A stretch of DNA of 64,000 nucleotides. Source: Thermoguttaceae bacterium (lineage in GTDB: Bacteria; Planctomycetota; Planctomycetia; Pirellulales; Thermoguttaceae). The position numbers and the translations under genes are program-made. The stretch lies in the NCBI GenBank assembly GCA_017447745.1, contig JAFSMW010000059.1, forward strand, positions 1 to 64,000, written 5' to 3'. The notes beneath the pieces are model-generated. The model did no database searches, had not been told where the DNA came from, and saw nothing but the letters and a program-made list of their open reading frames with translations. Shown piece by piece: positions 18,926-54,925 of this stretch; position 1 is the first letter of the stretch; every line of letters begins with the position of its first letter.

Positions 18926-20425
18926 ATGGTCAATAACGCCAACATCGGTTTTGAAAAAGAGATTTGGGACGCAGCCTGCGTCTTGTGGGGACACATTCCC
19001 GCCGCCGAATACCGAAAAGTTATCGTGGGGCTTATCTTCCTGCGGTACATTTCCAGCGCGTTTGAGAAAATCTATAAACGACTTGTCGAGGAAGGGGACG
19101 GTTTTGAAAACGAGCCGGACGCGTACCTTGCGGAGAACGTGTTTTTCGTCCCGGAAAAAGCGCGTTGGTCTGTGGTGTCCGCCGCGGCTCACACGCCGGA
19201 AATCGGAACGGTTATCGACGACGCTATGAGAGCCATTGAGAAGGAAAACAAGTCGTTGAAAAACGTTCTGCCCAAAAATTACGCCAGTCCAGACCTCGAC
19301 AAGCGCGTTTTGGGCGAAGTCGTCGATCTGTTCACCAATATGGACATGAGCGATACGGAAAACAGCAAAGACCTTCTCGGCAGAACGTATGAATACTGTA
19401 TCGCTCAGTTCGCCGCATACGAAGGCGTCAAAGGCGGCGAATTCTATACGCCGTCAAGCATCGTTAAAACAATCGTTTCTATTCTCAACCCGTTTAACAA
19501 CTGCCGCGTTTACGACCCCTGCTGCGGGTCAGGCGGAATGTTCGTTCAGAGCGCAAAGTTCATTCAGGCGCACAGCGGAAACAGAAGCGCTATTTCTGTA
19601 TACGGTCAGGAATCCAACGCCGATACATGGAAGATGGCGAAAATGAATATGGCTATCCGCGGAATTGACGCCGACCTCGGACCGTACCACGCCGACACGT
19701 TTTTCAACGATCTGCATAATACGCTCAGGGCGGACTTTATCATGGCAAATCCGCCGTTTAACCTGTCCAACTGGGGACAGGACAAGCTCAAAGACGACGT
19801 TCGCTGGAAATACGGGATTCCGCCAGCAGGCAACGCCAACTACGCCTGGATACAACACATGATACATCACCTCGCCCCCAACGGCAAAATCGGGCTTGTC
19901 CTTGCCAACGGCGCGCTGTCAACGCAAACAAGCGGCGAAGGCGAGATTCGTAAAAAAATTATTGAAGCCGATTTGATTGAGGGCATCGTCGCCCTGCCGA
20001 CGCAGCTTTTTTACAGCGTAACCATTCCTGTTACGCTATGGTTTATCAGCAAAAACAAAAAGCAGAAAGGAAAAACTCTGTTTATTGACGCCCGCAAAAT
20101 GGGCTATATGGTAGACCGCAAACACCGCGATTTTACCGACGAGGACATCGAGAAACTTGCCGATACATTCCATAAGTTTCAGAACGGCAAGTTAAAAGCA
20201 GTCAAAGGGTTTTCCGCCGTTGCGACAACTCAGGAAATCGCCGGGCAGGATTACATCCTCACGCCCGGGCGCTACGTTGGAATTGAGGAACAGGAAGACG
20301 ACGGGGAGCCGTTCGAGGAAAAGATGACGCGGCTGACGTCGGAGCTTTCGGAAATGTTCAAACAATCCCGCAAACTGGAAAAGGAAATTCGAGAGAAACT
20401 GAAAGGAATCGGATATGAAATATAA
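18926..20425 (+). CDS. hsdM: Type I restriction-modification DNA methylase subunit M
   Basis: A 499-residue N6-adenine methyltransferase subunit. It has the helical N-terminal HsdM domain (WGHIPAAEYRKVIVGLIFLR), the SAM motif YDPCCGSGGMFVQSA (about 195-209) and the catalytic NPPF in IMANPPFNLSNWGQD (near 272). With HsdS it methylates a target sequence to protect the host; with HsdR it restricts foreign DNA. It is the first gene of a run of same-strand defence genes ending with hsdR at 28736. Its last 11 bases overlap the MNT gene, indicating coupled translation. Confidence 0.95.
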   Translation: MVNNANIGFEKEIWDAACVLWGHIPAAEYRKVIVGLIFLRYISSAFEKIYKRLVEEGDGFENEPDAYLAENVFFVPEKARWSVVSAAAHTPEIGTVIDDAMRAIEKENKSLKNVLPKNYASPDLDKRVLGEVVDLFTNMDMSDTENSKDLLGRTYEYCIAQFAAYEGVKGGEFYTPSSIVKTIVSILNPFNNCRVYDPCCGSGGMFVQSAKFIQAHSGNRSAISVYGQESNADTWKMAKMNMAIRGIDADLGPYHADTFFNDLHNTLRADFIMANPPFNLSNWGQDKLKDDVRWKYGIPPAGNANYAWIQHMIHHLAPNGKIGLVLANGALSTQTSGEGEIRKKIIEADLIEGIVALPTQLFYSVTIPVTLWFISKNKKQKGKTLFIDARKMGYMVDRKHRDFTDEDIEKLADTFHKFQNGKLKAVKGFSAVATTQEIAGQDYILTPGRYVGIEEQEDDGEPFEEKMTRLTSELSEMFKQSRKLEKEIREKLKGIGYEI

Positions 20426-20705
20426 TATTCCCGACAGGGCTTTAGAAGATATTATAGCGTTAGCAAAGAAGAATGACATTAAAAAAGTTATTCTTTTTGG
20501 TTCGCGAGCAAGAGGAACGCATACCGAAAGAAGCGATATCGATCTTGCTGTCGTTGGCGGCGACGCTATGAATTTTTATTATGATTTAGAAGAAAAAGCG
20601 TGGACGCTTTTAAAGTTTGACGTAGTTAATCTGGATAAAGACGTCAGCGAGAAACTACAAAAGGAGATAGAAAGAGACGGAGTGGTTATTTATGGAAAAG
20701 TATAA
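20415..20705 (+). CDS. MNT-type minimal nucleotidyltransferase (antitoxin-like)
   Basis: A 96-residue member of the MNT/MntA family. The nucleotidyltransferase signature GSRARG followed by RSDIDLAV gives the metal-binding Asp pair, and the C-terminal DVVNLDK carries the usual third acidic position. In HEPN-MNT modules such a protein, an antitoxin, can modify or block the HEPN partner by nucleotide transfer. It overlaps hsdM by 11 bp and the HEPN-like gene by 14 bp, so all three are probably translated together. Confidence 0.85.
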   Translation: MKYNIPDRALEDIIALAKKNDIKKVILFGSRARGTHTERSDIDLAVVGGDAMNFYYDLEEKAWTLLKFDVVNLDKDVSEKLQKEIERDGVVIYGKV

Positions 20706-21087
20706 TAATTTCTGTAAAGCTCTTGCTAATTTGCATGAGGGCGTGAAACTCAATGAACCGTATTCAATCGTTGAACAAACCGGCATTGTTGGTTTATTCG
20801 AGATATGCTTTGAACAGTCCTGGAAACTGATGAAGGAAGTTCTTGAACAACACGGCAGATTTGAAGATAAAATCGGCTCTCCGAGAGCGTTGATTAAAAC
20901 GGCTTTTCAGTGCGGCATGATTAGCGACGAGGAACAGTGGCTCGAACTTCTCAAAACCCGAAACGTATTAGCTCATACTTACAGCGATGAACAAACGCTG
21001 AACGTAATCCGGTCGTTGAAAGAAAAATACATTTTCGCTTTTGACGACTTGAAAAAAGAGCTTGACGACAGATGGCTGGTTCAGTAA
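20692..21087 (+). CDS. HEPN-like partner of MNT (HI0074 substrate-binding type)
   Basis: A 131-residue, all-helical protein of the nucleotidyltransferase-substrate-binding (HI0074/HEPN) family. TGIVGLFEICFEQSWKLMKE and SPRALIKTAFQCGMI are family marks, and KTRNVLAHTY provides the Rx4H motif that in HEPN ribonucleases is catalytic. With the preceding MNT gene it forms a HEPN-MNT pair, a known toxin-antitoxin arrangement. Whether this HEPN cleaves RNA cannot be told from the motif alone. After its stop a repeat-rich gap of about 270 bp precedes hsdS. Confidence 0.82.
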   Translation: MEKYNNFCKALANLHEGVKLNEPYSIVEQTGIVGLFEICFEQSWKLMKEVLEQHGRFEDKIGSPRALIKTAFQCGMISDEEQWLELLKTRNVLAHTYSDEQTLNVIRSLKEKYIFAFDDLKKELDDRWLVQ

Positions 21088-21359
21088 AAACAAGGGAATA
21101 AAAGATTTCCCTTAAGCGCCTAAAGAGCGTCTATAGAAGCTCCTAAAATATACAAAGAACTTCCCAAAGAAGTTTCTATAATCTCGGGAACACTCGTGGC
21201 AGCCTTCGCATCAGTTCCCCTAGAAGCGCCTATAGAAGTTCACTTAGGAGTTCCCAAAGACGCCAGCCCTGCTGGATCGCGGGCGTGTCGCCCGCAAAAG
21301 AAGAACGAAAAAATACTAATTATACGACTTGAAAAATTAAAAATAAGGACTATTAAATT
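21088..21359. repeat. 12-bp-period degenerate repeats and a hairpin
   Basis: From about 21113 to 21170 and from 21219 to 21260 units resembling AAGCGCCTATAG recur with a period near 12 bp (AAGCGCCTAA, AAGCTCCTAA, AAGCGCCTATAG, GAGTTCCCAAAG). Around 21278 the hairpin GCGGGCG-TGT-CGCCCGC follows CTGGATC, like the one at 54873. No gene was supported. Confidence 0.5.
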
Positions 21360-22553
21360 ATGGTTAACATTTGGAAAGATTATCCGCAAAAACCATTACC
21401 TGACCTTTTAGAGTTCATTGTTGATAATCGTGGGAAAACCGTTCCAACAGTTTCGCAAGAAGAAGCTTGTGAGATAGTCCTTATTGCTACAAACTGTATT
21501 AGAAATGAAAATTTATATCCGGTCTATGAAAAAGTCAGGTATATTTCAAGGGATACCTACGAGAATTGGTTTCGCGCTCATCCCCAAAGTGGAGATATAA
21601 TATTTGTGAATAAGGGAACGCCAGGAAGAGTATGCTTTTGCCCTGAAAATATAGATTTCTGTATAGCACAGGATATGATGGCTTTTAGATCTGATTCTTC
21701 CCAGCTTTATAACAAATATCTACTTGCGTTATTAAGAAGTCGAGAATTACAGGAACAAATTAGGATTACAAGTGTTGGAGATACTATTCCACACTTTAAA
21801 AAAGAGTTCCTGAAAGAGCTTTCTATTCCTCTACCACCTTTATCTATCCAACATATTATTGGGGACTTTTACTTTACATTATCAGACAAAATCGAGTTAA
21901 ACAACAGAATTAACGCCAACCTAGAGCAGCAAGCGCAAGCGATATTCAAGTCGTGGTTTGTCGATTTCGAACCTTTTGGCGGAAAAATGCCAAAGGATTG
22001 GAAAATGGGGACAATTTCCGATATATGTTGTTATTCAAATAATAAGGTTAATGTTGAATATCTAACATTAGATAATTATTTCTCAACAGAGAATATGCAG
22101 CCAAATCGTCAAGGCGCTTTGCAGGCTACTTCTCTTCCCAATATCAAGCAGACAACAGCATGTAAAAAAGGAGATGTTCTTGTATCTAATATACGACCTA
22201 ATTTCAAAAAAATCCTTTATTGTTTTTCAGATTGTGGTTGTTCAACGGATGTTCTCTGTTTTGTACCCAATAATCGTGAGCTTTCTACATATCTTTATAG
22301 CGCTTTGTATTCAGATAAATTTTTTGATTATGTGGTAGCAGGCGTAAAAGGAACAAAAATGCCTCGCGGCGATAAACAGCAGATTATGAAATATCCTATT
22401 TATATCCCTACAACTGAATATTTTGAGCAATTCAATCAAATTGTTTCACCTATGCTTGAAACAGTATATATAAACAGACTTGAGATTAATAACTTGTCTT
22501 CTCTCCGCGACGCACTTGTTCCAAAACTGATGAGCGGCGAAATTAATGTTTAA
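21360..22553 (+). CDS. hsdS: Type I restriction-modification specificity subunit S
   Basis: A 397-residue HsdS with two target-recognition domains. The central conserved helix (LPPLSIQHIIGDFYFTLSDK, then NNRINANLEQQAQAIF) and the C-terminal one (EINNLSSLRDALVPKLMSGE) are the standard spacers; IPLPPL and YPIYIP mark the TRD ends. The subunit chooses the bipartite DNA target of the complex. The gene is clearly more AT-rich than hsdM and hsdR, as is frequent for swapped S genes. It is separated from hsdM by the HEPN-MNT pair and from hsdR by about 3.1 kb of other defence genes. The start at 21360 has only a modest AAGGA upstream. Confidence 0.9.
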   Translation: MVNIWKDYPQKPLPDLLEFIVDNRGKTVPTVSQEEACEIVLIATNCIRNENLYPVYEKVRYISRDTYENWFRAHPQSGDIIFVNKGTPGRVCFCPENIDFCIAQDMMAFRSDSSQLYNKYLLALLRSRELQEQIRITSVGDTIPHFKKEFLKELSIPLPPLSIQHIIGDFYFTLSDKIELNNRINANLEQQAQAIFKSWFVDFEPFGGKMPKDWKMGTISDICCYSNNKVNVEYLTLDNYFSTENMQPNRQGALQATSLPNIKQTTACKKGDVLVSNIRPNFKKILYCFSDCGCSTDVLCFVPNNRELSTYLYSALYSDKFFDYVVAGVKGTKMPRGDKQQIMKYPIYIPTTEYFEQFNQIVSPMLETVYINRLEINNLSSLRDALVPKLMSGEINV

Positions 22554-22580
22554 TTGTTACAATTTTAATTATTGGGGGAC

Positions 22581-22609
22581 TTGACTTATAATTGTTGATG
22601 TGGTATAAT
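22581..22609 (+). promoter_or_regulatory. Promoter of the Thoeris-like operon
   Basis: TTGACT at 22581-22586 and TATAAT at 22604-22609, with an ideal 17-bp spacer. Transcription would start near 22616 and leave a leader of about 148 nt before the ATG at 22764. This makes the three genes an independent unit inside the restriction-modification locus. Confidence 0.65.
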
Positions 22610-22751
22610 ATATGCTAAATGAAGTGATTATACAACAATTTACAAAATAATCATTGCTCAAAGATGGAAAATTGAGCATGATATATGGATACCAAATAGT
22701 AACAGTCGCAGATACACCTTCCAATTTATTCGAGTTTTTAATAACCATAGA

Positions 22752-22757
22752 AAAAGG
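22752..22757 (+). promoter_or_regulatory. thsB: Ribosome binding site of thsB
   Basis: AAGGAG lies 6 bases before the ATG at 22764 and decides this start over an upstream overlapping frame. Confidence 0.6.
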
Positions 22758-22763
22758 AGTATT

Positions 22764-23276
22764 ATGGCTTATAGAACCAGAACATATATTGCTGCTGATT
22801 GGGATTATGACAAAGATGCTGTTGATATACTTTGTCACTGGAATAAGAGTAGTAATAGAGAACTATCATTTGGGGATGCTCATGAGTTGAGCGAATGTCG
22901 TAGTGATAAAACCAATAACTGTAATATCAAAAGGAATTGCGCTCAGAATTTGGATCATTCCAAAGCATTTGTTCTCATAATTGGAGAACACACTAAAAAA
23001 TCGCGTGCAGGTTATTGTATGTATTGCAAGGATTATGATCATTGTCGATATAAATACACGTTAAATAAATCATTCGTTGAATTTGAATGTGACTATGCTG
23101 TTAGGAACAAATTGCCTATCATTGTTCTTTACAAATCGATCCAAGTTAAGAAATCTTTGTGTATTGAATCCGTTGTTAATAAAACGAATGTTCATGTTCC
23201 GATGTTGATGTATTCGAATGGAAAATTCTATTGGGACTACGAGAGTGTAGAGGAAGCCTTTGAAACATTAGATTAA
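22764..23276 (+). CDS. thsB: ThsB-like TIR domain protein (Thoeris sensor/synthase)
   Basis: A 170-residue TIR-like protein of the DUF1863/ThsB group. MAYRTRTYIAADWDYDKDAV at the start, FGDAHELSECR, HSKAFVLIIGEHTKKSRAGY and KSFVEFECDYAVRNKLPIIVLY are family features; the Glu in FVEFE (106 or 108) is the candidate NADase residue. A cysteine cluster (Cys53, 59, 85, 88, 94, 109) marks a known subgroup and may bind metal. In Thoeris the TIR protein senses phage and makes an ADP-ribose-type signal; for type II systems a histidine-linked ADPR has been reported. It abuts thsA with no intervening base, so both are translationally coupled. Confidence 0.8.
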   Translation: MAYRTRTYIAADWDYDKDAVDILCHWNKSSNRELSFGDAHELSECRSDKTNNCNIKRNCAQNLDHSKAFVLIIGEHTKKSRAGYCMYCKDYDHCRYKYTLNKSFVEFECDYAVRNKLPIIVLYKSIQVKKSLCIESVVNKTNVHVPMLMYSNGKFYWDYESVEEAFETLD

Positions 23277-24086
23277 ATGTTAATAAATCAGAAGTTTAAA
23301 AAACATTTGAAATATGCTAGTTCTAGGTTTTCTCATTGGATAGCTAAATTCTCAGTTTTAATTGGAATTTTTGCAGTAATACCATTGCAAAACTACCTAT
23401 CATGCCTGGCTCTAATTTGTATAGTATTAGCTATCTTCGCATTAGCATTTATTATACCATTAGTGGGTTCTTATATTCTCAAAGAATTTAGAATATCTAC
23501 CATAGGAAAATCAACCGTAACATTGAAATTTGACGATTTATTGGAACAGGATTGTTTTGTAATTACTACAAATCTAAATTTTGATGTTGAACCCGATGAA
23601 AAATATATATCATCTTTATCATTATTAGCGAAATTTGTTAAAATGTATTATCCTAATGATATTTCGTTATTAAAGCAAGAAATCCAGAAACAACTCTCCG
23701 TTCCTAAAAATAGACAGATTAAACCTCGTGATTATGGAACAACTGTCAGAATAGATAAAGAATCAAAAATAATATATTTAATGGCTTTTACAGATAGAAA
23801 TAAAAATGATCAGCCAGAAGATTTTTATATAACGTCTATTCGTGAATTTTTTAAAACAATTGCGAATGAAAATCATGGGAGAGTTGTTTCAGTTCCATTA
23901 TTTGGCAGCAATAATAATTTGAGCAATTCCGGGTTTATGAGTAAATCTATGGCATTAGAATCATTATTAACGATGATTCATGTATTTGAGATAGAAAACC
24001 AACGCTCAGAATTGAAATTTCAAATTGTCGTACTTCCCGAAGACAGAGCAGAAATTATAGATACTGTCGCCAAGTATGCAAGATAG
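23277..24086 (+). CDS. thsA: ThsA-like effector: two membrane helices plus Macro domain
   Basis: A 269-residue protein. Two hydrophobic helices (about 18-42 and 43-68) are followed by a Macro-like domain (about 85-265) of the type found in type II Thoeris ThsA (DUF6430-like): FVITTNLNFDV, PRDYGTTVRI, KIIYLMAFTDRNKN and RVVSVPLFGSNNNLSN are the tell-tale segments. It would bind the signal made by the TIR protein and damage the membrane, causing abortive infection. Its ATG directly follows the thsB stop (TAA-ATG). Base composition is very AT-rich. I call it ThsA from domain order and partner; the sequence match was recognised by eye only. Confidence 0.76.
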   Translation: MLINQKFKKHLKYASSRFSHWIAKFSVLIGIFAVIPLQNYLSCLALICIVLAIFALAFIIPLVGSYILKEFRISTIGKSTVTLKFDDLLEQDCFVITTNLNFDVEPDEKYISSLSLLAKFVKMYYPNDISLLKQEIQKQLSVPKNRQIKPRDYGTTVRIDKESKIIYLMAFTDRNKNDQPEDFYITSIREFFKTIANENHGRVVSVPLFGSNNNLSNSGFMSKSMALESLLTMIHVFEIENQRSELKFQIVVLPEDRAEIIDTVAKYAR

Positions 24087-24110
24087 TATCCAGTAATTAA
24101 GGAGAAAAAA

Positions 24111-25052
24111 ATGGGACAATATGATTTTACGTATGTAATACCAGATAATTTTAAAACTCGATTAAAACAATATTTACAGGGTTCTTACAGAAAGGAATTG
24201 TTCGATGCGTTTCAGCAATGCAAATTCGAGTATGAGGATGTTGGTTTAGCTTATTATGCAGGACTAAAAGGCGACAACTGGAATAAAAATGCTCTTGTTA
24301 TAACAATTGAGGGTTCAGAAGATAATATCAAATTATTAGAATCAAACCAAAAAATATTTAAAGAAAAAATTGAATTGTCTCTTAAGCCCAGCGAGTCTGG
24401 TTTTTTGGTTAAAGAAATTCATTTTCTAATATCGGATAATATTGAAAGCGTTCTTCCTCATTCAAAAGAAGAAAAACTTAATCAAATTCTCGCTGAAGCT
24501 AATTCCGTTCTTCAAGATTTAATAATAATTGGAAAAGAATTAATAAGTAATAATGTAAACTTCAATGAAGAATCTGGCGAGGATGAGATTAATGATATTA
24601 TCAGGAGTATGTTGAAGCTTACGAAGAAATACGAAATTAAAGATCAAACTCGACATGGCATTTCTTATAATAGGAAAAACGCCGGCGAAGTTGATATTCT
24701 AATATCAACGAAAGAAGGAAAGGAAATAGGGTTATTTGAAGGATTAAAACTAGACAGCGTTGATACCGCTTACATTGACAAGCATATTGATAAAACAATT
24801 AACAATTATAATGCTTTAGGAATTTCAACTTTTATAGTTGCTTATGTTTCCGCCGTGAATTTTGACGTTTTTTGGAAAAAGTATCTTGAGTATATATCAA
24901 ATTATTCGTATGATATGGAAGTAAAAAGAGCAATGGAACAAATAATTGCTCCTAATGCTCCAATCAAAATAGCTCAAACAATTTTATCAAAAGACGATCA
25001 CGATTTTCCTGTATATTTTATTTGTTTCAACTTCAGAAAGAATATTAAATAA
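24111..25052 (+). CDS. Unknown defence-operon protein, putative PD-(D/E)xK nuclease
   Basis: A 313-residue protein not assigned to a named family. The C-terminal half reads AGEVDILISTKEGKEIGLFE followed by GLKL: Asp195, Glu210 and Lys213 fit the spacing of a PD-(D/E)xK-type nuclease core (D...ExxK variant). The next segment, DSVDTAYIDKHIDKTINNYN, resembles helices seen in proteins from other conflict loci. Residues 1-130 contain a possible small globular domain with VITIEGSEDNIKLLES. The gene follows thsA by 24 bp with its own AAGGAG site, has the same AT-rich base composition and is thus probably the third gene of the operon. Type II Thoeris is described as a two-gene system, so its role is open. 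Confidence 0.55.
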   Translation: MGQYDFTYVIPDNFKTRLKQYLQGSYRKELFDAFQQCKFEYEDVGLAYYAGLKGDNWNKNALVITIEGSEDNIKLLESNQKIFKEKIELSLKPSESGFLVKEIHFLISDNIESVLPHSKEEKLNQILAEANSVLQDLIIIGKELISNNVNFNEESGEDEINDIIRSMLKLTKKYEIKDQTRHGISYNRKNAGEVDILISTKEGKEIGLFEGLKLDSVDTAYIDKHIDKTINNYNALGISTFIVAYVSAVNFDVFWKKYLEYISNYSYDMEVKRAMEQIIAPNAPIKIAQTILSKDDHDFPVYFICFNFRKNIK

Positions 25053-25091: not shown

Positions 25092-25355
25092 ATGGCAAAT
25101 TTGCAAATCAGAATTAACGATGACCTTAAAACGCAAGCGGACAACCTTTTCGCAAGCCTGGGATTCGATACTTCTACAGCGGTAAGAATATTTTTAACTG
25201 TCGCAGTAGAGAATAACGGGTTACCTTTTGATGTTCGCCACAAAACCGTTCCCGAGAATATCAGACAAGCTGTAAACGAAAGCCGAAACAGAGTTAATCT
25301 CAACGGTCCGTACAACACAGCCGAGGAAGCGGTTGCCGCAATGATGGAGGAATGA
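25092..25355 (+). CDS. RelB/DinJ family antitoxin, no toxin gene beside it
   Basis: An 87-residue protein with the RelB/DinJ ribbon-helix-helix signature MANLQIRINDDLKTQADNLF followed by LGFDTSTAVRIFLTVAVENNG. Such antitoxins bind DNA and neutralise a RelE/YafQ-type RNase, whose gene normally follows at once. Here the next 330 bp hold only hairpin repeats, and hsdR comes after. It may be an orphan regulator or a remnant. A 39-bp gap separates it from the preceding gene, and no ribosome site stands out. Confidence 0.8.
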   Translation: MANLQIRINDDLKTQADNLFASLGFDTSTAVRIFLTVAVENNGLPFDVRHKTVPENIRQAVNESRNRVNLNGPYNTAEEAVAAMMEE

Positions 25356-25685: not shown

Positions 25686-28600
25686 ATGCCCTACACCGAA
25701 CCCAGCTACGAAACCGCGATAATTCAGCTCTTTGAAAAGATGGGGTATTCCCACGTTTACGGTCCGGACGTGGAGAATCGGAACTTTAATTCTCCATTGT
25801 ATATGGAAAAACTGGAAAAAGCGCTTCATCAACTCAATCCAGGATTGCCGGAGGAGGCGATTTCCGACGCTATAAATAAACTTACCAATTTCGAAATCGG
25901 CGAGCTGGTTCAGAAAAACGCCATTTTTATGGACTATCTGCAAAACGGAATAGAAGTCCGCTATACAGAAAACGGCGTTCAGCGGTCGGCGTTATGTTAC
26001 CTAATAGACTATTCCAACTGCGACAACAACTCTTTTGATATCGCCAACCAGTGGACGTTCATTGAAAACGAAAACAAACGTCCAGACGTTCTTCTGTTTA
26101 TCAACGGTTTGCCGCTCGTTTTAATGGAATTAAAATCGCCGTCGCGAGAGGAAACGGACGCGTCAGAAGCCTATAAACAGATTCGCAACTATATGCAAGC
26201 CATTCCGTCAATGTTCATTTATAACGCCATTTGCGTTATGAGCGACATGGCTCTCAATCGGGCGGGAACGATCACCTCTGGCGAAGACCGCTATATGGAC
26301 TGGAAAACGGTAGACGGCAGTTATGAGAACACGCAGTTCGCAAACTTTGAAACGTTCTTTACTGGCATTTTTCAGAAAGAACGCCTGCTCGATATTCTGA
26401 AAAACTTTATTCTCTTTTCCAAAGAAGGGTTGACAAACTACAAGATTCTGGCGGGCTATCATCAGTATTTTGCCGTGCGAAAAGCGGTAGAGTCTACAAA
26501 GAAGGCGACGCTTACCGACGGCAAAGGCGGCGTGGTTTGGCATACGCAGGGAAGCGGAAAATCGCTGTCGATGGTCTTTTACGCTCATCTATTGCAATCG
26601 GAACTGGAAAGCCCAACTATCGTCGTTATTACCGACAGAAACGACCTGGACAATCAGCTGTATTTGCAGTTTTCCAAGTGCAAGGACTTTTTGCGTCAGA
26701 CGCCTGTTCAAGCCAAAAGCCGCGAGCATTTATCGTCGCTTTTGGAAAAACAAAAAGTGAACGGCATCATTTTTACAACCATGCAAAAGTTCGAGGAGCC
26801 GGGCGAACCGCTTTCTCTGCGGCGGAATATCATCGTTATCGCGGACGAAGCCCATCGCGGGCAGTACGGGCTGACAGAAAAAATCAAAATGAAGAAAAAC
26901 GCCGACGGGGAACTGGTCGCTCATCGTTCCGTTGGAATCGCCCGCATTATTCGTCAAACGCTCCCGAACGCAACCTATATCGGCTTTACCGGCACGCCGG
27001 TTTCACTTGAAGACCGCAACACGCGCGAAGTGTTCGGCGACTATATCGACGTCTACGACATGACGCAGGCTGTCGAGGACGGGGCAACGCGCCCGGTGTA
27101 CTACGAAAGCCGCGTTATGAAACTCAAGCTGGACGAAACGACTCTTCAGCTTATCGACGCGGAATACGATATTATGTCGCACAATTCCGACCCGGACGTA
27201 ATCGAACGCAGCAAACGCGAGCTGTCGCAGATGGAGGCGATTCTGGGTCATGAAGACGCTATCAATTCGCTTGTAGACGACATTCTTGATCATTACGAAA
27301 ATTACCGTCAGAACCTTCTAACCGGCAAGGCGTTGATTGTTTCGTATTCAAGAGCCATTGCAATGAAAATCTACAATCGCATACTTGAACTGCGCCCATC
27401 CTGGACGGACAAGGTTGCCGTCGTTATGACCTCGTCCAATAAAGACCCCGAAGAATGGCATGACATTATCGGCTCTAAACATCACAAAGAAGAGCTTGCA
27501 AAGGATTTCAAAAAAGACGACAGTCCCCTGAAAATCGCAATTGTCGTTGATATGTGGCTGACGGGCTTTGACGTCCCGTCGCTGGCGACAATGTACATTT
27601 ACAAGCCCATGATGGGATACAACCTCATGCAGGCAATCGCTCGGGTGAACCGCGTTTTTCAGGATAAAGAAGGCGGGTTGATCGTCGATTACGTCGGAAT
27701 AGCCACCTATCTCAAACTGGCGATGAACGAATACACCGTTCGCGACCGAAAGAATTACGGCAATCCCGATATCGCTCAGACGGCGTACCCGGTCTTTCAG
27801 GAAAAGCTGTCTGTTTGCCGCGACTTGCTTCATCCGTTTGACTATTCCGCCTTTTTCAACGGAAACGAACTCACCGCAGGCAGAACGATTACCGGCGCGG
27901 TCAACTTCCTTATGGACGTTTCGCGGGAGCAAGTTCGCAACGATTACATTAAAGAAGCCCTTCTGCTGCATAAAGCCCTTTCGCTGTGTTCTTCGATTGC
28001 AAAAGAAGACGAACGCGAGCTGGCGGCGTTTCTGGAAGCGGTTCGCGTTTTGCTCATGCGAATCGTCAGCCAAGGGGCGGGAAGAAGGCTGTCGCTCCCG
28101 GAAATCAACGCCAAAATTAACGAGCTGTTAAAGCAGTGCATCAAAGGCAGCGGCGTCATCAATCTTTTCTCCGACAGGGAACTGGAATTTTCGCTCTTCG
28201 ATCCAAAGTTCCTCAAAGAGATTTCTCAAATGAAAGAAAAGAACCTCGCCGTCGAACTGCTCCGAAAGCTGATTTCAGAACAGATTCACATTTACAAGCG
28301 GACAAACCTTGTAAAATCCGAACTGTTCAGCGAGCTAATGCAGAAAGCCATGAATCGCTACCTCAACGGTTTGCTCACCAACGAACAGGTCATTGAAGAA
28401 ATGCTCAATCTGGCAAGACAGATTCGGGAAGCTCATCAGGCAGGAGAAGAACTCGGTCTGAACGCCAACGAACTGGCGTTCTACGATGCCATTACCAAGC
28501 CGCAGGCGATCAAGGATTTCTACGAAAACGAGGAGCTAATCGCCATTACCAAAGAACTGACTGAAACGCTTCGCAAGAACTGTACAATCGACTGGCAGAA

Positions 28601-28736
28601 ACGCGAGTCCGCCAGAGCTAAAATGCGTATGATGATTCGCAAACTCCTGAAAGATCACCGCTATCCGCCAGAAGGCATGGAAGACGCAATCGTTACAGTT
28701 ATGAACCAGTGCGAGCTGTGGGCAGATGAACAATAG
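25686..28736 (+). CDS. hsdR: Type I restriction enzyme subunit R
   Basis: A 1016-residue HsdR. The nuclease core is RPDVLLFINGLPLVLMELKS (PD..ExK, about 133-152). The helicase follows: Walker A WHTQGSGKSLSMVFYA (near 284-299), the Q/DEAH-like IADEAHRGQYG (near 385), GFTGTP (motif III) and YNLMQAIARVNRV (motif VI). It translocates DNA with ATP and cuts at random sites once HsdM/S find an unmethylated target. A helical C-terminal domain (about 780-1016) would bind the methyltransferase core. It has the more GC-rich composition of hsdM rather than that of the thoeris genes. AAGGA at 25673-25677 serves its start. Confidence 0.95.
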   Translation: MPYTEPSYETAIIQLFEKMGYSHVYGPDVENRNFNSPLYMEKLEKALHQLNPGLPEEAISDAINKLTNFEIGELVQKNAIFMDYLQNGIEVRYTENGVQRSALCYLIDYSNCDNNSFDIANQWTFIENENKRPDVLLFINGLPLVLMELKSPSREETDASEAYKQIRNYMQAIPSMFIYNAICVMSDMALNRAGTITSGEDRYMDWKTVDGSYENTQFANFETFFTGIFQKERLLDILKNFILFSKEGLTNYKILAGYHQYFAVRKAVESTKKATLTDGKGGVVWHTQGSGKSLSMVFYAHLLQSELESPTIVVITDRNDLDNQLYLQFSKCKDFLRQTPVQAKSREHLSSLLEKQKVNGIIFTTMQKFEEPGEPLSLRRNIIVIADEAHRGQYGLTEKIKMKKNADGELVAHRSVGIARIIRQTLPNATYIGFTGTPVSLEDRNTREVFGDYIDVYDMTQAVEDGATRPVYYESRVMKLKLDETTLQLIDAEYDIMSHNSDPDVIERSKRELSQMEAILGHEDAINSLVDDILDHYENYRQNLLTGKALIVSYSRAIAMKIYNRILELRPSWTDKVAVVMTSSNKDPEEWHDIIGSKHHKEELAKDFKKDDSPLKIAIVVDMWLTGFDVPSLATMYIYKPMMGYNLMQAIARVNRVFQDKEGGLIVDYVGIATYLKLAMNEYTVRDRKNYGNPDIAQTAYPVFQEKLSVCRDLLHPFDYSAFFNGNELTAGRTITGAVNFLMDVSREQVRNDYIKEALLLHKALSLCSSIAKEDERELAAFLEAVRVLLMRIVSQGAGRRLSLPEINAKINELLKQCIKGSGVINLFSDRELEFSLFDPKFLKEISQMKEKNLAVELLRKLISEQIHIYKRTNLVKSELFSELMQKAMNRYLNGLLTNEQVIEEMLNLARQIREAHQAGEELGLNANELAFYDAITKPQAIKDFYENEELIAITKELTETLRKNCTIDWQKRESARAKMRMMIRKLLKDHRYPPEGMEDAIVTVMNQCELWADEQ

Positions 28737-54645: not shown

Positions 54646-54925
54646 GCGTCTCGAAGAGACGCCATTTCTATAACCGTCGACTTTAGTCTACGGATTGAGA
54701 AACGCTCTATGCTGTCTCCTAATCGAGTCCGTCTCTTTTCTTCCTCTCCCCGGCGTCTACGACGCCGGGGAGAGGAAGAAAAGAGTATTTGTCGATTTCT
54801 TTTTTCGTTATTCTTTAAGTCCGTGGGTTAAAACCCACGGCTAGAAACATTGAACCGCTAACGCGGTTCTATGCGGGCGACACGCCCGCGAACCGGACTC
54901 AACCATCTGCAATCGCCAATCTAAT
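54646..54925 (-). repeat. Composite hairpin module, inverted copy 3
   Basis: GCGTCTC-GAA-GAGACGC (54646-54662), ACCGTCGACTTTAGTCTACGG (about 54674-54694), a perfect 25-bp hairpin (54733-54757 with 54761-54785, loop TAC), CCGTGGGT-TAAA-ACCCACGG (54821-54840), GAACCGC-TAAC-GCGGTTC (54852-54869) and GCGGGCG-ACA-CGCCCGC (54873-54889). It is the 16930-17170 module in reverse orientation. Confidence 0.8.

Follow-up and report, generated by a model that had tools for sequence, protein, structure and literature searches.

The window, by which we mean the whole stretch of 64,000 nucleotides that was analysed (contig JAFSMW010000059.1 from a Thermoguttaceae bacterium), contains a type I restriction operon. 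A Thoeris pair and the gene under study are embedded within this operon. The genes are on one strand, in the order hsdM, a MNT/HEPN pair, hsdS, thsB, thsA, the gene under study, a relB-like gene, and hsdR. The genes and domains are:

18926..20425, plus strand: hsdM of the host type I restriction operon (family profile matches)
20415-21087, plus strand: a nucleotidyltransferase (Polbeta) and NTase_sub_bind/HEPN-like pair (MNT-HEPN toxin-antitoxin-like), between hsdM and hsdS
21360..22553, plus strand: hsdS (family profile matches)
22764..23276, plus strand: thsB (TIR) of type II Thoeris (PADLOC, 2.6e-63; Pfam ThsB_TIR, 1.6e-8)
23277..24086, plus strand: thsA (TM-macro) of type II Thoeris (Pfam ThsA_Macro, 1.5e-21)
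24111..25052, plus strand: the gene under study, 313 amino acids, with a sensor-like N-terminal domain A and a C-terminal PD-(D/E)xK-like domain
24111..24494, plus strand: domain A, residues 1 to about 128, with a different domain in its place in a sister genome
24495..25049, plus strand: the C-terminal PD-(D/E)xK-like domain (C-domain), residues 129-313, from an unnamed family
25092-25355, plus strand: a RelB/DinJ-like antitoxin gene (RelB, 1.4e-11), 39 bp downstream of the gene under study
25686..28736, plus strand: hsdR (family profile matches)

An earlier note on this DNA described a 313-residue ORF that follows thsA by 24 bp, shares its AT-rich composition, and fits no named family, and all of this holds up. 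The frame opens with ATG and has zero internal stops; thsA ends at 24086; and the GC content is 0.305 in the N-terminal half and 0.295 in the C-terminal half, versus 0.294 for thsA. (The other values are 0.339 for thsB, 0.354 for hsdS, 0.504 for hsdM, 0.484 for hsdR, and 0.476 for the window.) There is a low-GC block (29-34%), versus 48-50% in hsdM and hsdR. The Thoeris neighbours are genuine as well: both PADLOC and Pfam identify a type II (TM-macro) pair. Pfam, NCBIfam, PADLOC, and PHROGs gave no usable match to the gene. (NAPRTase_N scored 13.4 bits for the whole protein against a cut-off of 32.6, and we consider this sub-threshold hit to be a chance match.) An HMM that was built from non-planctomycete relatives alone recovers the gene with E = 1e-38 and none of 2,000 shuffles was reported, so the homology to these relatives is not due to chance.

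By tblastn, the protein splits in two: residues 1-110 and residues ~130-290 match different proteins, and the latter match the C-termini of otherwise dissimilar proteins. Relatives of the C-domain include ORF333 of prophage P2-EC5; a LRR-Roc-COR protein of Spirosoma; plasmid proteins of about 1,260 amino acids from Burkholderia, Salmonella, and Edwardsiella; a Vibrio plasmid protein that is partnered with an AAA ATPase; and, from a genome scan, further LRR-Roc-COR proteins in Bacteroidota. In prophages, the C-domain is the C-terminal end of the partner of an AAA_15 ATPase (loci L014, L015, and L023-L031). A DNA pattern for the signature that is described below found ten stretches of viral contigs, and the eight new ones that were checked all encode the C-domain according to the HMM. 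At the phage and prophage loci, except for L032, the gene for the C-domain directly adjoins an AAA_15 gene similar to ORF555 of P2-EC5. The C-domain is rare within each phylum: it was found in 1 of 392 genomes of Planctomycetota and in 4 of 395 genomes of Bacteroidota that were sampled. The papers that we searched (open-licence texts) contain no description of this family.

The sister genome is from the rumen planctomycete RUG11551 (G002/L016), which belongs to the same genus and has the same type I restriction locus. By blastn, the sequence from 24497 through the RelB-like gene is 91.5% identical in RUG11551, and nothing is shared across 22620-24496. The exchanged block is:

22620..24496, plus strand: thsB, thsA, and domain A, in place of which RUG11551 has ~740 bp encoding another N-terminal domain (by blastn)

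The gene after hsdS in RUG11551 encodes 422 amino acids: a different N-terminal part of ~220 amino acids, which contains a domain that we call B, followed by the same C-domain (82% amino acid identity over residues 129-313). Both thsA and thsB are absent. RUG11551 also lacks the nucleotidyltransferase/HEPN pair (hsdS is directly after hsdM there), so there are two places in the operon where modules are exchanged.

We made three other observations about this operon. First, the stretch 21271-22619 (hsdS) has 98% DNA identity between the two planctomycetes, versus about 91% for hsdM and about 80% for hsdR; this suggests that hsdS was transferred recently. Second, a palindromic element, GCGGGCGTGTCGCCCGC, is found at 21272-21295, bordering the MNT-HEPN insertion, with a second copy at 54873-54896; none would be expected by chance. 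It is possibly a dispersed repeat that serves recombination. Third, the RelB/DinJ-like gene (25092-25355) is present before hsdR in both the window and the sister genome, and no recognisable toxin accompanies it. It had no match in two same-genus genomes, in a search that had no positive control.

Both kinds of N-terminal domain have relatives in other toxic proteins. Domain A is 54% identical, over 110 residues, to the N-terminus of a protein from Ruminococcus phage NatCom_2329; this protein has 253 amino acids and its C-terminus is Abi_C (Pfam, 5e-9). The matches of domain B are the N-termini of two kinds of protein: Abi_C "abortive infection family" proteins (from Legionella and Pseudomonas) and Mrr_cat proteins (from Rhizobium and Vibrio). 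So, both of the N-terminal domains that are joined to this nuclease-like domain are also found on Abi_C toxins. This is the Abi-style architecture, in which N-terminal domains are common to proteins with other toxic C-terminal domains. Neither domain A nor domain B matches a Pfam model. The window was the sole match to a profile of domain A among 334 planctomycete genomes and 345 Bacteroidota genomes (the Bacteroidota set had no positive control), and peptide patterns and a degenerate DNA pattern for domain A found nothing in viral contigs. Since domain A was seen in just two proteins and is poorly modelled (AlphaFold pLDDT mostly 28-60), we infer its role as a sensor from the architecture.

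The earlier note had suggested that the gene might be a third effector, a regulator, or an accessory of type II Thoeris. For example, it could be a second effector that is activated by the product of ThsB and contributes DNA cleavage alongside the TM-macro ThsA. The gene does lie 24 bp behind thsA, with the same strand and composition, and the exchanged block takes in thsB, thsA, and domain A together. But in the survey of homologues that the earlier note called for, every sampled homologue outside of the window lacks ThsA and ThsB: among the loci with the C-domain that we read, the window is the only one with either gene, and the sister genome retains the gene without Thoeris. For the homologues sampled outside of the window, this is the result that the earlier note had named as a refutation of its idea. 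Conversely, two other sampled planctomycetes have ThsA_Macro above the curated cut-off, beside thsB, and neither the C-domain nor domain A is present at these loci. The phage protein with domain A has no Thoeris within the stretch that was read, and the paper on TM-macro Thoeris that we searched describes ThsA and ThsB alone (PMC11204291). (By tblastn, the window's ThsA had no match in plasmids, and this query is unable to show Thoeris co-occurrence there.) Membership in Thoeris is not supported, and we consider it quite improbable that the gene is a third component of this system. Domain A may have a functional link to ThsA and ThsB, since all three lie in one exchanged block and were gained or lost together.

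To classify the C-domain, we relied on predicted structures. In the AlphaFold model of the whole protein, pLDDT is above 90 across most of the C-domain and the N-terminal domain is poor; an AF2 model of the C-domain alone has a pLDDT of 85.9 and a pTM of 0.85. The structure check that the earlier note proposed for this region turned up a predicted PD-(D/E)xK common core of helix-strand-strand-strand-helix-strand (helix 27-40, strands 45-48, 66-69, and 75-84, helix 89-103, and strand 109-116, in the numbering of the model). When the C-domain model was compared to known structures with VIA-align, the best matches were OkrAI (Z = 9.0, with 143 residues aligned at 3.6 A), BglII (8.7), McrC (8.7), and BamHI (8.3). 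These were followed by NucC (6.7) and SduA (6.5) and then by BspD6I2, EndoMS, VC1899, EcoT38I, PspGI, EcoRI, and others. The tool warns that Z scores near 8 are common on their own, but the top 24 rows are nearly all nucleases with the restriction endonuclease fold, and unrelated proteins (Rep15, gephyrin, and acetyl-CoA carboxylase) appear from about Z = 5.5. Because the top rows belong to one superfamily and the invariant residues lie on the active-site elements, we find the PD-(D/E)xK fold persuasive. Foldseek found no match in the PDB at E ≤ 0.001 with either the full model, which is diluted by its poorly modelled N-terminal half, or the C-domain alone, so the fold assignment rests on VIA-align and the motifs. 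(Tyrosine phosphatases were among the Foldseek rows for the C-domain, but they were scattered, had low TM scores, and were absent from the top of the VIA-align list.) Sequence searches of the PDB, with the protein or with a profile as the query, gave nothing meaningful. In BFVD, a single match, to an uncharacterised algal-virus protein, reached E = 7e-4, and the weaker matches include proteins that are labelled as PD-(D/E)XK nuclease and restriction endonuclease.

We then considered which residues of the C-domain might form an active site. The relevant features are:

24579..24581, plus strand: E157, putative motif-I acid, invariant, at the start of the first core helix
24642..24695, plus strand: signature DQTRxGxSxxxKxxGExD, from D178 to D195, with D195 as the putative catalytic Asp
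24738..24740, plus strand: E210, putative catalytic Glu, invariant, on the third core strand, with a hydrophobic residue at position 212
24783..24794, plus strand: the invariant residues H225 and K228, on the helix that comes after the third strand

In an alignment of 16 rows (A6), E157, D178, Q179, G183, S185, G192, E193, D195, E210, L214, H225, K228, and Y233 are invariant. The same positions, except for E193, are also invariant in an alignment of 9 rows that adds plasmid relatives (A1). Overall identity between relatives from different phyla is 24-33%. The earlier note had proposed D195, E210, and K213 as a PD-(D/E)xK-like triad. All three residues are where it placed them, and the two acids fared well: an acid is expected on each of core strands two and three, and D195 and E210 are invariant in both alignments (16/16 and 9/9). 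The role of K213 did not stand. Most relatives have K or R at this position and some have I or C, and the expected site of the ExK lysine, position 212, is L, M, or F throughout the alignments. We therefore revise the putative site to E157, D195, and E210 with, likely, K228, which would be a functional substitute for the canonical lysine. As the ExK lysine is not in place, we class the gene by its PD-(D/E)xK fold and not by the canonical motif.

The hydrophobic residue at the lysine position in all relatives could instead mean that the C-domain is a catalytically dead scaffold that merely binds nucleic acid or a partner. The ratio dN/dS between the C-domains of the two planctomycetes, at about 0.68 (0.103/0.152), points in the same direction, as it would suggest weak constraint. 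However, the two strand acids, the helix Glu, the His, and the Lys are invariant across phyla, which is the pattern expected of an active site. BamHI and BglII, which are among the closest folds, lack the ExK lysine yet cut DNA, and the PD-(D/E)xK superfamily tolerates such changes. We consider a dead scaffold to be very unlikely. That residues ~129-313 form a PD-(D/E)xK-fold nuclease is well supported by the predicted fold and by conservation; the C-domain would then be catalytic, probably with DNA as its substrate.

We propose that the gene is an Abi-style antiphage effector that functions as a single gene, independently of Thoeris, and that it joins an exchangeable N-terminal sensor or control domain to an unnamed PD-(D/E)xK-fold nuclease with E157, D195, E210, and K228 as its putative site. 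This is our best explanation and we consider it fairly probable. The N-terminal domain would keep the nuclease off, or unassembled, until a phage component is encountered. Once triggered, the nuclease would cut nucleic acid, most likely DNA, and this cleavage would halt phage replication or kill the cell. Backup modules such as this gene, which is docked between hsdS and hsdR, may be swapped in and out of the type I restriction operon. We infer the sensing by the N-terminal domain, the trigger, and cell death. A precedent is given by Anantharaman et al. (2013), who described fusions of Abi N-terminal domains with RNase, REase, or TIR domains (PMC3710099). In their proposal, the N-terminal domain detects components of the virus and controls the C-terminal toxin, and such fusions are often beside restriction systems (PMC3710099). 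The architecture that we see matches their proposal. In particular, the AbiJ-NTD1-5 domains are small N-terminal domains that are swapped among toxic C-terminal domains (HEPN, REase, TIR, and others) and are linked to restriction operons (PMC3710099). Unlike those fusions, the gene has no HEPN domain, its C-domain is an unnamed PD-(D/E)xK-like domain, and its N-terminal domains have no match in Pfam. It also differs from AbiJ proper in that the HEPN-like C-terminal domain of AbiJ/Abi_C was not found. So the mode of fusion was already known, and the family of the C-domain is new to Pfam, NCBIfam, PADLOC, and PHROGs.

A broader proposal, which we put at a little under an even chance, is that several unrelated immune receptors of bacteria, namely small Abi-style sensors, AAA_15 ATPase pairs of prophages, and NLR-like LRR-Roc-COR proteins, share the C-domain as a nuclease effector that is both unnamed and widespread. 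ORF333 of P2-EC5, whose partner is the AAA_15 ATPase ORF555, shares the C-domain with a different N-terminal half, and the gene in the window differs from the pairs of the P2 hotspot in having no AAA_15 neighbour. In L015, the AAA_15 pair follows an ORF similar to the P2 replication protein, which fits a location in the gpA-gpQ defence hotspot of P2 (described in PMC9122126). The gene does not resemble PARIS: besides the missing AAA_15 neighbour, it has no match to DUF4435, and AriB of the AriA/AriB pair is DUF4435/TOPRIM (PMC9122126), which is a different fold from the C-domain. The bacterial LRR-Roc-COR (Roco) proteins have the same C-terminal domain, with a signature of the DQTRxGxSGxGKxxGExD type, but where the gene under study has a ~128-residue N-terminal domain, they have a large LRR-GTPase receptor. 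McrC, NucC, SduA of Shedu, BamHI, OkrAI, and BglII have a similar predicted fold (Z = 6.5-9.0), but at 7-16% identity the relationship cannot be detected by sequence, and the lysine is elsewhere. Type II Thoeris (ThsB with TIR and ThsA with TM-macro) adjoins the gene in this window only and is not a conserved partner.

The position of the gene raises another explanation, which is that it is a guard similar to PrrC: the HsdMSR complex would hold the protein inactive, and a phage anti-restriction protein that disables HsdMSR would release it to kill the cell. The prrC gene occupies the interval between hsdS and hsdR in EcoprrI, and in both of our genomes, the type I operon is intact and has the gene between hsdS and hsdR, with different flanking modules in each genome. 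PrrC is a second line of defence that senses the inhibition of EcoprrI (PMC9122126). Against this, the ABC-type ATPase and the anticodon-nuclease (HEPN) domain of PrrC and RloC were not found in the gene, the relatives of the C-domain that we read are mostly outside of type I operons, and the position is known from two genomes only. We consider the restriction guard unlikely, but it is compatible with our best explanation and is a live variant of it, with the trigger as the sole difference.

The gene might also encode a toxin whose antitoxin is the product of the RelB/DinJ-like gene, which lies 39 bp downstream. The RelB/DinJ-like gene follows in both genomes, and there is no other toxin gene beside it. 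But these two genomes are related, and the shared arrangement counts as a single event; a RelB neighbour was not noted at the other C-domain loci that we read, and a toxin-first order is unusual. The usual partners of RelB are toxins with the RelE fold. This pairing seems scarcely plausible to us.

The single-gene effector that we propose corrects a tempting annotation as a third Thoeris gene. Several defence architectures have the nuclease-like domain, which is new to the libraries searched, at their effector end. If the C-domain cuts DNA, then this provides one activity for many "hypothetical" C-termini, including those of LRR-Roc-COR proteins and of the prophage AAA_15 pair. If the shared-effector reading is true, then a set of bacterial Roco proteins, which are cousins of LRRK2, would be nuclease-tipped immune receptors. 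More members of the family could be found with the signature DQxxxGxSxSGxxxGExD ... E ... HxxK. Also, the two sister genomes are a natural swap of sensors on a fixed nuclease and hence a ready pair for asking what the N-terminal domains sense.

Several other loci are of interest in their own right. In prophages, the AAA_15 ATPase and the gene with the C-domain occur as a conserved unit of two genes (L014, 3767-6480; L015, 3798-6480). The best PADLOC match of the AAA_15 ATPase from P2-EC5 is NsnB (1e-49), and its C-domain partner has no PADLOC model. In a transposon on a plasmid of Photobacterium toruni (L004, 2763-5501), a protein with LRR-Roc-COR and the C-domain is encoded between genes for TniB/HTH and TniQ, and the same transposon bears type I-F CRISPR genes. 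Finally, in the viral contig L032 (3472-5160), a M78/ImmA-like metallopeptidase domain is joined to the C-domain.
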